Both the position numbers and the translations under genes were made by a program. 64,000 bases of DNA, taken from Corynebacterium urinipleomorphum (GTDB taxonomy: Bacteria; Actinomycetota; Actinomycetes; Mycobacteriales; Mycobacteriaceae). The stretch lies in contig NZ_LT706963.1 in assembly GCF_900155535.1 (NCBI RefSeq), forward strand, positions 189,929 to 253,928. The letters run 5' to 3'. The notes below the pieces were generated by a model, which was not told the origin of the DNA, made no database searches, and was given only the letters and a program-made list of their open reading frames with translations. Positions 25,819-29,958 of the stretch are shown piece after piece; the stretch's first letter is position 1; every line of letters starts with the position of its first letter.

Positions 25819-25968
25819 CCAGCAAAGCTGCCAGCACTCTGCTTAGGGGCTGGGGCGCAGGTCAAACTAAGGAATGAGTTAGGGCGAACTTGCTTGAAGC
25901 CCTAGTGGGGCGTGCGTAGTGTCGGACTCACCAGTGAATCAACCTGATTTATGGAGGAGGGCCATCTC

Positions 25969-27543
25969 ATGGCTGACAACAATCCCGCAGAAGAAATTGT
26001 GAAGAAGGGCGAGCGCGCCGCCGGTAACGGCAAGACCACCCGCCTGGGCGGCCAGCCGGTCGCTTCGGAGAACATCTCCGTTACCGCCGGCCCGCAGGGC
26101 CCGAACCTGCTCGACGATATTCACCTCGTCGAAAAGCTTGCTCACTTCAACCGTGAGAATGTCCCGGAGCGCATCCCGCACGCTAAGGGCCACGGAGCAT
26201 TCGGTGAGCTGCACATCACCGAGGATGTGTCCCAGTACACCAAGGCCAAGCTGTTCCAGAAGGGCACGGTCACCCCGATGGCGGCCCGCTTCTCCACCGT
26301 TGCTGGTGAGGCTGGCTCCCCGGACACCTGGCGCGATGTCCACGGCTTCGCGCTGCGTTTCTGGACCGAGGACGGCAACTACGACATCGTCGGCAACAAC
26401 ACCCCGACGTTCTTCCTGCGTGACGCGGTGAAATTCCCGGACTTCATCCACTCGCAGAAGCGCGATCCGCGCACCGGTCTCCGCTCCGACGAGATGCAGT
26501 GGGACTTCTGGACCCGCACCCCGGAGTCCGCTCACCAGGTGACCTACCTCCTCGGTGACCGCGGCACCCCGAAGACCTCCCGCCACCAGGACGGCTTCGG
26601 TTCCCACACCTTCCAGTGGGTCAACGAAGAGGGCGACGCAGTCTGGATCAAGTACCACTTCAAGACCCGTCAGGGCTGGGAGTGCTTCACCGACGAAGAA
26701 GCAGGCAAGATGGCCGGCGACAACGCCGACTACCACCGCCAGGACCTGTTCGAGGCCATCGAGCGCGGCGATTACCCGATCTGGGATGTCAAGGTCCAGA
26801 TCATGCCGTTCGAGGACGCCGAGAACTACCGCTTCAACCCGTTCGACCTCACCAAGACCTGGTCCCAGAAGGACTACCCGCTTGTCGACGTCGGCTACTT
26901 CGTGCTCAACCGCAACCCGAAGAACTTCCACGCTCAGATCGAGCAGCTGGCTCTCGACCCGTCCAACATCGTCCCGGGTGTCGGCCTGTCCCCGGACCGC
27001 ATGCTGCAGGGCCGCGTGTTCGCCTACGCCGACCAGCACCGCTACCGCATCGGACCGAACTACAAGGACCTGCCGGTCAACCAGCCGATCGCGCCGGTGA
27101 ACACCTACGCAGAGCGTGGCCCGATGCAGTACTTCTTCAACAACGAGGGTGAGCCGAACTACACCCCGAACAACACCGAGAAGGGTGCTGGCTACCTGGA
27201 CAACGGTGAGGACTCCTCCTCCAACCACACCACCTATGGCCAGGCACACGACCTGTACGTGAACCCGGACCCGCACGGCACCGACCTCGTCCGCGCTGCA
27301 TACGTCAAGCACGCCGAGGACGACGACTTCGGCCAGGCAGGTACCCTCTACCGCGAGGTCTTCGACGACGCTGAGCGCGAGCGCTTCATCGACAACGTCA
27401 CCAACAAGATGCTGCCGATCAAGGACAAGGACGTCGAGGAGCGCACCTTCGCCTACTGGGGCAAGGTCGACGCCGACCTCGAGCCGAAGCTCCGCGAGGT
27501 GCTGGCCAAGAAGCGCGAGGACGCTTCCAAGGATTCCGAGTAA
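25969..27543 (+). CDS. katA: catalase
   Basis: A 524-residue monofunctional haem catalase. The active-site histidine is in RIPHAKGHGAFGELHIT, the distal asparagine in VGNNTPTFFLRD, and the proximal haem tyrosine in GRVFAYADQHRYRIG. The start ATG at 25969 has GGAGGAGGG before it; an upstream in-frame ATG at 25951 contains this ribosome site and is rejected. Codon use is strongly biased to the preferred codons, as for a highly expressed gene. A strong terminator follows. Confidence 0.97.
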   Translation: MADNNPAEEIVKKGERAAGNGKTTRLGGQPVASENISVTAGPQGPNLLDDIHLVEKLAHFNRENVPERIPHAKGHGAFGELHITEDVSQYTKAKLFQKGTVTPMAARFSTVAGEAGSPDTWRDVHGFALRFWTEDGNYDIVGNNTPTFFLRDAVKFPDFIHSQKRDPRTGLRSDEMQWDFWTRTPESAHQVTYLLGDRGTPKTSRHQDGFGSHTFQWVNEEGDAVWIKYHFKTRQGWECFTDEEAGKMAGDNADYHRQDLFEAIERGDYPIWDVKVQIMPFEDAENYRFNPFDLTKTWSQKDYPLVDVGYFVLNRNPKNFHAQIEQLALDPSNIVPGVGLSPDRMLQGRVFAYADQHRYRIGPNYKDLPVNQPIAPVNTYAERGPMQYFFNNEGEPNYTPNNTEKGAGYLDNGEDSSSNHTTYGQAHDLYVNPDPHGTDLVRAAYVKHAEDDDFGQAGTLYREVFDDAERERFIDNVTNKMLPIKDKDVEERTFAYWGKVDADLEPKLREVLAKKREDASKDSE

Positions 27544-27597
27544 GACGACTCCTTCAACGGCTAAAGGATCACGCCGCTAACCGCGGACCCTCCGCCG

Positions 27598-27643
27598 AAA
27601 ACCCCGACCACGCTGCCGGATGTGCAGCGGTGGTCGGGGTTTC
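27598..27643 (+). terminator. intrinsic terminator of katA
   Basis: Stem CCCCGACCAC against GTGGTCGGGG, preceded by AAAA and followed by TTT, about 55 nt after the katA stop. Confidence 0.85.
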
Positions 27644-27693
27644 GTCATGGGGCAGCGGCCCGATAGTCACTGGAACCCCACCCGGGTCCGCAA

Positions 27694-27715
27694 ATGCAGC
27701 TACTAGCACGCAGCT
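27694..27715 (+). repeat. outer inverted repeat, left
   Basis: ATGCAGCTACTAGCACGCAG plus CT; exactly complementary to 29527-29548. Preceded by CAA. Confidence 0.9.
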
Positions 27716-27775
27716 AAAGCTTATTTTGGGAGCGCGGACAAAAGGTTGGAGTGTTCTGGGGTGGGAGGGGCCATA

Positions 27776-29464
27776 ATGGCCGCGAGGTTTCCTACCGATA
27801 TCCGTCAGGCCGCTGTGAAGCGGTTTCGGGACGGTTCTGCTGCCAAAGAGGTCTGCGATTGGGTTGAGCGGCAATGCGGCCGCCGCCCAAGCCCATTGAC
27901 GGTATGCAAATGGAATGACGACATCCGACGAGGCATCGTCATCGCCGAGGTGCCGCAGACTCATCCGCCTGAGACTGTCGCGCGTGCTGTGGCGTTGCGC
28001 ATGTCGTCTGAGTGGACATTGCGCGCTATCGAAGCAGAATGCAGCGTGCGTGCAGGGTCGATTCTCAAATGGGTTGATCGCTTCGGCCCGGATCCTGCTG
28101 ATGCTGCGTCTATGACCTTCGAGCAGGTTTATGAGGCGACAATGGATGCTGTGAGAAAACAGCGCAGAGCAAAACGCGACAAAGAAGCACAATGCTCAAG
28201 TGCTCCCAAGCCGGTTCCGCGTCCGGTGGGGCCTGTCGACGAGTGGATCCCAGGACCGGGCCCTGTGCCGGATAAGGATCATCTTCCCGATGACCCGGAA
28301 GCGTTGAAACGGCTCCTGCGGCAAGAGCTTGACCGCAACGAAGTCAAAAACGCCGTGATCCAAGCCTTGATGGACACCGGGGAGGCCAGCACGGCGGGAA
28401 AAGACCTCGTCCACGACGGTAAAACCGCAGCGGCGGTGCAAGCTGCCGCTGTTAATGCCCTCGTGGACGCTACTGGCATCAGCACCGCCAAAGCATGCAG
28501 GCAGGTCGGGATGCCGGAATCGACCTACTACTACCAGCGCCGACGAGCGGCATCGGCCACACAGCGCGCAGCACGCCGCGAGGAGTTGAAGGTTTTGATC
28601 ACTCAAGCGGTAGAAGAAACCGGTCGCAGCTACGGCTACCGCAGGATCCACCACTGGCTGGCCTGTGCCGGGCACACGGTGTCAGAAAAGATCGTGCGCG
28701 CATGCATGACAGAACTTGGGCTGCACCCGCCGGCAAGAACGTTTTCGAAGTACTCGTCCTACACCGGGGAAACAGCTCACCGGCCGGACAATCTCCTTCT
28801 CGTTACCGCCGACACAGCAGATAGGGCACGCCAGGTCGCTGTATCGGGTTATTTCACCAGCAATGCCGATCGGTTAGGGCTCACCCACGACTTCCACGCT
28901 GACGCCCCGTGGGAAAAGATCGGCACCGACGTGACAGAAATCGCCTGCGCCGACGGCAGGCTCTACGTCTCTGCCGCGATCGACTTCTACGACGGGATGC
29001 CCGTGGCAGTGACGATGTCGGATTCACCCAACCACGATCTTGTCGCCGAGATGATCAGCGTTATCGAAGCACAAAAACCTGCCGGTGCCCGGCCGATTAT
29101 CCATTCCGATCGCGGTGGGTTGTACCGCAGCACGAAATGGGTCGAGATGATCACAGACCCAGCACACGACACAAACGCATGCCCCCAGTGCACCCCAGAC
29201 GGGCGGTGCGCTCAATCTTGGCGGTATATCCCGTCGTTGTCGCGGCGAGGAAACAGCGGGGACAACGCCCGGGTCGAAGGCTTTTTCGGGACGATGAAAC
29301 AAGAACGACTCATCGGCCGGCCCCAAACCAAACAGATGACGAAGGCCGAAATGATCGATTACATTAACGACTACATCGACTTCTACATCCACAAACGGTT
29401 TAAGTCGACACTCGGTGCGGGCTACACGACAATCGCCCAACACCGACAACTACTAAGCGCGTAA
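27776..29464 (+). CDS. IS3-family-like DDE transposase, single fused ORF
   Basis: 562 residues from the ATG at 27776, which has GGGAGGGG before it. The N-terminus has two helix-turn-helix segments (FPTDIRQAAVKRFRDGSAAK; ALRMSSEWTLRAIEAECSV), as in OrfA. A linker leads to an OrfB part with HTH_21 (SYGYRRIHHWLACAGH) and an rve catalytic core: GTDVTEI, HSDRGGLY, NARVEGFFGTMKQE. OrfA and OrfB are joined without the usual frameshift. Between the second Asp and the Glu there are 55 residues rather than about 35, including CPQCTPDGRC, a zinc-knuckle-like insert. The gene looks intact and may be active. Confidence 0.85.
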   Translation: MAARFPTDIRQAAVKRFRDGSAAKEVCDWVERQCGRRPSPLTVCKWNDDIRRGIVIAEVPQTHPPETVARAVALRMSSEWTLRAIEAECSVRAGSILKWVDRFGPDPADAASMTFEQVYEATMDAVRKQRRAKRDKEAQCSSAPKPVPRPVGPVDEWIPGPGPVPDKDHLPDDPEALKRLLRQELDRNEVKNAVIQALMDTGEASTAGKDLVHDGKTAAAVQAAAVNALVDATGISTAKACRQVGMPESTYYYQRRRAASATQRAARREELKVLITQAVEETGRSYGYRRIHHWLACAGHTVSEKIVRACMTELGLHPPARTFSKYSSYTGETAHRPDNLLLVTADTADRARQVAVSGYFTSNADRLGLTHDFHADAPWEKIGTDVTEIACADGRLYVSAAIDFYDGMPVAVTMSDSPNHDLVAEMISVIEAQKPAGARPIIHSDRGGLYRSTKWVEMITDPAHDTNACPQCTPDGRCAQSWRYIPSLSRRGNSGDNARVEGFFGTMKQERLIGRPQTKQMTKAEMIDYINDYIDFYIHKRFKSTLGAGYTTIAQHRQLLSA

Positions 29465-29526
29465 CTACGAGAACAAAATCCTCGGAAACACTCCAACAAA
29501 ACGTCCGCATCCCCTTTCAGGTCTTG

Positions 29527-29548
29527 AGCTGCGTGCTAGTAGCTGCAT
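29527..29548 (-). repeat. outer inverted repeat, right
   Basis: Exact complement of 27694-27715; followed by CAA. The 60 bp inside it (29465-29526) hold the right inner repeat and no gene. Confidence 0.9.
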
Positions 29549-29571
29549 CAAGCTCGGAGTGACAGGGTCGG

Positions 29572-29958
29572 TTACAGCTGCGGCTGAGTCCCCTCGGCGC
29601 GGTCCTGACGGTGCTGGCTCGCCTGGTGTTCCCGTCGCTGCATAGCCGCCCAAGGGTCCACGACGGTCACACCGTGGATGGAGCGGCCCATGATGAACGA
29701 GCCCACGGAGCCGACGATCCAGACACCGAGGATGGCGATGACGGCGCGGATGAAGTCGCCAGCGACAAAGCCCTCCGTAGCCCAGTCAGCCGTGAGCTTG
29801 GCCAGGATGAGCGCTGGGAAGGCGATACACACGAGCGGGCCAATGAGGTTCACCCGGGTCAGTGCGTCCGGGGCGCGGAGCTGGAGGATGAGGGTGGCTA
29901 CCGTCATGAAGACGGCGAGGAACGCGAAAGCGAGAACGATGATCTGCCAGATAGCCAT
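29572..29958 (-). CDS. mrpG: Mrp antiporter subunit MrpG (MnhG/PhaG)
   Basis: A 128-residue membrane subunit with three helices (about 5-25, 38-58, 70-92) and a charged hydrophilic tail (MQRREHQASQHRQDRAEG). Motif LRAPDALTRVNLIGPLVCIAFP is typical of MnhG. The ATG at 29958 overlaps the mrpF stop, which is why the longer frame from 30090 is rejected. It is the last gene of the operon and ends only 24 bp from the IS3-like element. Confidence 0.9.
   Translation of the reverse strand: MAIWQIIVLAFAFLAVFMTVATLILQLRAPDALTRVNLIGPLVCIAFPALILAKLTADWATEGFVAGDFIRAVIAILGVWIVGSVGSFIMGRSIHGVTVVDPWAAMQRREHQASQHRQDRAEGTQPQL

Follow-up and report, generated by a model that had tools for sequence, protein, structure and literature searches.

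An IS3-like insertion sequence located at the symmetry axes of terminator-like palindromes in Corynebacterium

The closest described relative in behaviour of the element reported here is ISPsy8, an IS3 family insertion sequence of Pseudomonas syringae. All five of its five copies are located at one point of REP sequences, which coincides with the axis of the predicted hairpin; insertion is accompanied by a 3-bp duplication, and joining the flanks restores the REP (Tobes and Pareja 2006, PMC1525189, as far as the accessible part of that paper goes). According to the same partial text, IS1397 of E. coli and ISKpn1 of Klebsiella, also of the IS3 family, insert into palindromic units, with their transposases reported to be responsible for the target, and ISRm22 of Sinorhizobium has a repeat as its target, in which it inserts on the axis of palindromy (PMC1525189). 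Since ISPsy8, IS1397 and ISKpn1 have been described, insertion of IS3 family elements into palindromic repeats is an already known mode (PMC1525189, in the part available).

The element studied here is similar to ISPsy8 in being of IS3 type, in its 3-bp duplication and in its insertion at a hairpin axis. It differs from ISPsy8 in that the latter encodes separate OrfA and OrfB, whereas here there is one fused frame, and in that the REPs targeted by ISPsy8 follow one consensus, whereas here identical copies are found in two palindrome types (PMC1525189, same extract). IS1397 and ISKpn1, whose targets are enterobacterial REPs/PUs, can be likened to it by description only, while ISRm22 shares insertion at the axis but generates 6-bp duplications (PMC1525189, same extract). 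What is new here is an actinobacterial case, a fused transposase with changed spacing of catalytic residues, terminator-like targets and the presence of identical copies in two palindrome types. Neither the element nor the palindrome family is reported in the literature that we searched, which included the accessible parts of PMC2267715 and PMC5217627 and few subscription papers.

The window analyzed in this work is a 64,000-nucleotide stretch of the Corynebacterium urinipleomorphum genome. The insertion sequence, 1787 bp long, occupies positions 27,728–29,514 of the window on the forward strand; its limits are defined by four complete copies from the same genome, which have exactly the same termini and differ in the DNA outside. 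The termini are GGGAGCGCGGAC on the left and GTCCGCATCCCC on the right, and similar termini are present in 11 relatives. Terminal inverted repeats revealed by comparison of copies are located at 27,728–27,755 (forward strand) and 29,487–29,514 (reverse strand). They include the nested, imperfect inverted repeat noticed in the original prediction (27,734–27,755 and 29,487–29,508, 77%), the true ends being 6 bp outward of it on both sides. The element is bordered by a TTT target site duplication (27,725–27,727 and 29,515–29,517), so that the terminal inverted repeats and short target duplication sought in an IS3 element are both present. The target duplication in the IS3 family is ca. 3–5 bp. 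A 3-bp duplication is also seen beside a copy in another genome (L079) when it is compared with an empty sister palindrome.

The transposase is encoded by a single frame of 562 amino acids (27,776–29,464, forward strand). It matches HTH_21, rve and rve_2, the latter two above their cut-offs, and scores 204 bits with the NCBIfam equivalog NF033516 transpos_IS3 (cut-off 160), in agreement with the IS3-like identity proposed originally. Residues D385, D445 and E501 of the rve core are invariant in all six transposases aligned, and by the family pattern we take them to be the catalytic residues. D445 and E501 are separated by 55 residues, with a Cys-rich insertion (residues 469–478; C469, C472 and C478) between them, in place of the DD(35)E spacing of the IS3 family (PMC1525189, in the part available). 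Because the transposase is close to the family by profile and departs from it in its DD(55)E arrangement, the element is referred to as “IS3-like”. The fused frame is a further departure from the two open reading frames that are usual, though not obligatory, in the IS3 family (PMC1525189, same extract). More distant relatives (39–43% amino acid identity) are present in four genomes (G009, G106, G114 and G115); the three inspected (L073, L074 and L076) share the Cys-rich insertion and the DD(55)E spacing but have two reading frames. Structure prediction of the transposase by AlphaFold gave a mean pLDDT of 56.9 and a pTM of 0.29; over most of the catalytic half, pLDDT was under 50.

A perfect 22-bp inverted repeat (27,694–27,715 and 29,527–29,548), with CAA directly outside of it on both sides (27,691–27,693 and 29,549–29,551), encloses the element, as had been predicted. 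When extended, its arms are 26 nt long (27,694–27,719 and 29,523–29,548) and 96% complementary; they belong to the two halves of a split palindrome, 27,692–27,727 and 29,515–29,551. Being perfect, inverted and flanked by CAA, the outer repeats had been considered possible true ends of the element, with the inner repeats then serving as sub-terminal transposase sites. This is almost certainly wrong. C13:67526, a complete copy from this genome with 99.3% identity, has no outer repeats; among copies the inner ends are constant while the outer sequence varies; the TTT duplication directly abuts the inner ends; and intact palindromes that lack the element exist, including at the orthologous locus. 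Comparison with other copies and with empty sites thus sets the boundaries at the inner ends, the outer repeats not being shared exactly. It supports the view that the outer 22-bp repeats are arms of a target palindrome of about 68 nt, split at its symmetry axis. The CAA pair was also considered as a target duplication and ruled out, since CAA is not present on both sides of the two other complete palindrome copies of this genome, at C9 and C13:361k (at the latter, it is found on the left side only).

The C. urinipleomorphum genome (2.26 Mb, 13 contigs) contains six copies of the element, of which four are complete and 99.3–99.7% identical, one is truncated (C13:341k) and one ends at a contig end (C13:756k). 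Palindrome arms of the TGCAGCT type are found on both sides of three complete copies, and on the one remaining side of each of the two incomplete ones, which were left out of all symmetry scores. In all, five of the six copies are in such palindromes, with a different internal sequence at each. Arms of this family are absent from the flanks of C13:67526, the fourth complete copy. At C13:361k (L012) the left end of the element is repeated around a single N; this junction probably arose where sequence of a multicopy element was joined during assembly, and the outer left flank was used for the symmetry and axis scores of this copy.

In the window, the split palindrome is located between the convergent genes of a catalase (25,966–27,543, forward strand) and an MnhG-like antiporter subunit (29,572–29,958, reverse strand; 26 bits, cut-off 23.4). 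The catalase gene is followed by a terminator-like hairpin (27,596–27,644, forward strand) separate from the target palindrome, and a separate hairpin in the same place, between the catalase gene and the palindrome, can be seen by eye in genome G068. An intact palindrome without the element is present elsewhere in the C. urinipleomorphum genome (C13:61618–61685); the paralogous empty palindromes are L015 and the sister palindrome beside L079. A search of 242 genomes of the genus with the joined flanks of the window element produced matches in 82, mostly to one gene end. Seven loci were inspected with a covariance model at E ≤ 0.1: an intact palindrome is present beside the catalase gene in five (L183, L184, L185, L187 and L188), and none was found there in L186 and L189. 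In L183, L184, L185 and L188 the intact palindrome is flanked by catalase and by mnhG-like DNA, and these four are therefore orthologous empty sites, the finding that the original prediction had named as refuting outer ends.

A protein search of the same 242 genomes revealed a transposase match at E ≤ 1e-60 in 10. Complete close relatives (57–60% amino acid identity) are present in G130 (at least five), C. haemomassiliense (G140, at least four), C. mucifaciens ATCC 700355 (G162, at least one) and Corynebacterium sp. MSK008 (G217, at least one); numbers such as that for G130 are lower bounds because at most the best five candidates per genome were scored. All 11 of 11 complete close relatives are located in palindromes of the CCGGCTAC or CCAGCTAC type. 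Scoring of target structure was confined to copies other than the fragments L072 of G238 and L162 of C. gottingense. A protein search of 396 genomes of the phylum at the same threshold of E ≤ 1e-60 returned the C. urinipleomorphum genome only. In a contig collection, no relative was found with a single-protein query, and a profile scan with alignment A2 retrieved seven loci; a DNA search of plasmids with the element found nothing.

In 14 of the 15 complete copies from five genomes (4 from C. urinipleomorphum and 11 from the others), no more than 1 nt separates the centre of the target duplication from the symmetry axis. The value of 100% of copies at the same repeat position, looked for in palindrome- and REP-targeting elements (the type 1 association of PMC1525189), is not reached in the C. 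urinipleomorphum genome because one of its copies, C13:67526, is elsewhere, 2.5 nt off its best axis. Flank symmetry was compared with that at random positions by two scores: the value of the window site was reached by none of 40,008 with the first and by none of 13,195 with the second; for the 14 axis copies together, no more than 53 of 40,008 and 19 of 13,195 random positions scored as high. In the case of C13:67526, 4557 and 451 random positions, respectively, did so, and this weakly symmetric site is therefore not clearly a hairpin target. The proposal that the element had inserted between two arms of a palindrome already present thus stands at the level of position; hairpin-loop targeting, put forward along with it, likewise holds for position, while recognition of the site as an extruded hairpin goes beyond this positional evidence. 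Two copies of the distant relative in G009 (L073 and L091) are also on the axes of palindromes, of other sequence, with symmetry reached by none of 13,195 random positions. The other 9 of 11 distant-relative copies were not axis-placed by the score used, for which 871 of 13,195 random positions equalled the best of them.

Duplications of 3–4 bp are present in 13 of the 15 copies; a fourteenth, AAAA at C13:361k, was identified by eye using the outer left flank. A matching duplication is absent from L084, possibly due to recombination between copies. Eleven of the 15 copies have AAA or TTT as the duplicated trinucleotide. When joined with one copy of the duplication removed, the family sites form long hairpins in which the insertion point is in or beside the apical loop. 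Thirteen of them fold at −32 to −68 kcal/mol; C13:67k was excluded, as was C13:361k, whose fold represents an artefactual join and was disregarded.

The palindromes belong to a dispersed family of Corynebacterium (L107–L155), 68 nt long and located near gene 3′ ends, each arm of which carries two CNGCT-like boxes spaced by 14 nt. A covariance model was built from 16 sites; L084, lacking a matching duplication at its junction, was for that reason excluded from the underlying alignment (A1) and was still counted in the duplication, symmetry and axis scores. The paired percentage is by itself uninformative, since the alignment is made of palindromes. In the 16 sequences, both sides changed in 16 of 27 pairs, and the covariation score was 0.419, whereas shuffles averaged 0.167 and slid partners did not exceed 0.104. 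Of the five covariation measures, one (further pair types) was within shuffles, with 127 of 500 reaching the observed value.

The model matched 27 of the 242 genus genomes at E ≤ 0.01 and 21 at E ≤ 1e-6 (C. urinipleomorphum included; best 21 candidates per genome scored, with stricter filters). All five genomes with complete element copies are among the 21; in the six whose best match is above 1e-6, at least one match (L133) looks by eye like an ordinary terminator. When the best 150 candidates per genome were scored, eight genomes had 4 to 59 two-strand matches, which after halving corresponds to approximately 5 to 30 copies in each of the seven besides C. urinipleomorphum. These numbers are below the more than 100 copies given for REP elements in the accessible part of PMC2817692; the palindromes are dispersed and, in the sample, extragenic. 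Among 298 genomes of the order, which included at least four other members of the genus, the model at E ≤ 1e-6 (best 17 candidates per genome, stricter filters) matched C. urinipleomorphum only. Six sample palindrome loci produced no Rfam match at the gathering score; matches at E ≤ 1 were to microRNA hairpin models only, below gathering, and were taken as chance because the palindromes are near-perfect hairpins. A search with a 7-nt instead of an 8-nt spacer in the palindrome pattern found nothing. L128 (33 nt), L132 (36 nt) and L149 (40 nt), palindromes that are shorter and have a single box in each arm, were also matched by the model; they may be half-size members of the family or else ordinary terminators.

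For analysis of gene context, 32 palindromes were chosen by hand from the best matches among the 49 loci, leaving out opposite-strand duplicates (L134, L141, L146, L147 and L153), short loci (L124 and L138) and weaker or shorter matches (L125–L133 and L149). All 32 are located 12–104 nt past a gene end, which, with the strong folds of the joined sites given above, is as expected of terminators; 23 are between convergent genes, 9 between tandem and none between divergent ones, these loci not all being independent because L118/L119 and L111/L136 look orthologous. Two of the loci left out, L126 and L127, are between divergent genes, and a wider set of 44 that includes them and some duplicates is composed of 28 convergent, 12 tandem, 2 divergent and 2 undetermined cases. 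The corresponding numbers for the 15 insertion sites are 6, 7, 1 and 1, and the 29 intergenic gaps of at least 60 nt in the window comprise 5 convergent, 13 tandem and 11 divergent ones. Genes were called by a GC3 heuristic, with overlapping calls at a few sites. Many palindrome copies end in merely two or three T. With their location immediately beyond gene ends in the chosen sample, in many cases between two genes that converge, the palindromes look like bidirectional terminators; given the two divergent members and the mixed orientations at insertion sites, such a function is likely and no more than that.

We consider it very probable that the IS3-like element inserted at the axis of a palindrome of about 68 nt that was already present between the catalase gene and the mnhG-like gene, which converge. 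Insertion would have duplicated 3 bp (TTT) and parted the palindrome arms by 1.8 kb. IS3 family elements move by copy-out/paste-in, and during paste-in the element ends would be joined across 3–4 bp at the palindrome tip. The transposase may select the palindrome itself, either as a hairpin or cruciform tip or as two symmetric duplex half-sites with CNGCT-like boxes. Since the palindromes appear to be bidirectional terminator-like structures, aiming at them would let the element avoid genes. Several observations do not fit easily: C13:67526 is located outside any family palindrome, L084 lacks a matching duplication, just 2 of 11 distant-relative copies, both from G009, are clearly on an axis, and one covariation measure does not exceed shuffles. 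The explanation, moreover, is derived from comparison of sequences rather than from observed transposition.

Four copies in G130 bear on target choice. They are 100% identical in DNA and therefore were presumably placed by one transposase, yet L079 and L085 are in CCGGCTAC-type and L089 and L093 in CCAGCTAC-type palindromes, which in this genome are 55–59% alike and have in common four CNGCT-like boxes and the pairing. One may ask whether palindromes are chosen at all, or whether insertions that harm genes are lost and harmless ones in terminators survive. The palindromes of the chosen sample are indeed just past gene ends, where insertion is cheap. However, the window alone has about 6.1 kb of intergenic DNA (by rough gene calls), the known full-length palindromes of the C. 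urinipleomorphum genome, one intact and five split, make up far less than its intergenic DNA, and survival alone leaves the 14 copies within 1 nt of an axis unexplained; we regard this alternative as very unlikely. It is extremely unlikely that palindrome and element move as one unit, the insertion sequence having been captured in a palindromic miniature element. Both are multicopy, and the palindrome occurs in each of the five genomes with complete copies, but palindrome sequences differ between copies, even around identical ones, palindromes are present (E ≤ 1e-6) in 21 of 242 genomes versus 5 with complete close copies, and orthologous palindromes without the element exist.

How a palindrome would be selected is a more evenly balanced matter. 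A transposase multimer could bind symmetric half-sites in duplex DNA, the hairpin never being formed; the letters of the outer CNGCT and inner CNGYT boxes, kept in all 16 aligned targets, and the preference for AAA or TTT as duplicated trinucleotide are consistent with this, and we put its chances only slightly below even. Such binding is harder to reconcile with the acceptance by identical copies of palindromes that are 55–59% alike, with the two G009 copies on axes of palindromes without these boxes, and with C13:67526, where such boxes are absent up to 30 nt from the junction. Alternatively, and this we propose tentatively, as somewhat under an even chance, the transposase may recognize the tip of an extruded cruciform or hairpin by its shape and not by its sequence, with host terminator palindromes serving as landing pads. 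If shape is recognized, targets that share little sequence would be tolerated, and palindrome-axis targeting would be a general trait of this branch, with palindrome families differing by relative.

Insertion at the axes of pre-existing palindromes illustrates how such insertion sequences can find landing spots between genes, and its study has led to the description of a dispersed, covarying, terminator-like palindrome family of Corynebacterium. Identical copies on the axes of palindromes 55–59% alike in one genome, together with empty sites, constitute a natural experiment on target choice and make it testable whether an IS3-type DDE transposase recognizes structure or sequence.

The distant relatives present some further features. 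In G009, the palindromes at L073 and L091 are long and contain CAGAAA motifs; two of the four copies of this two-frame relative are on an axis there. In G106, a recurring GTTCAC-containing motif can be seen by eye in the flanks of L076, L082, L087 and L092, and at L082 an off-centre GTTCACC/GGTGAAC hairpin is visible.
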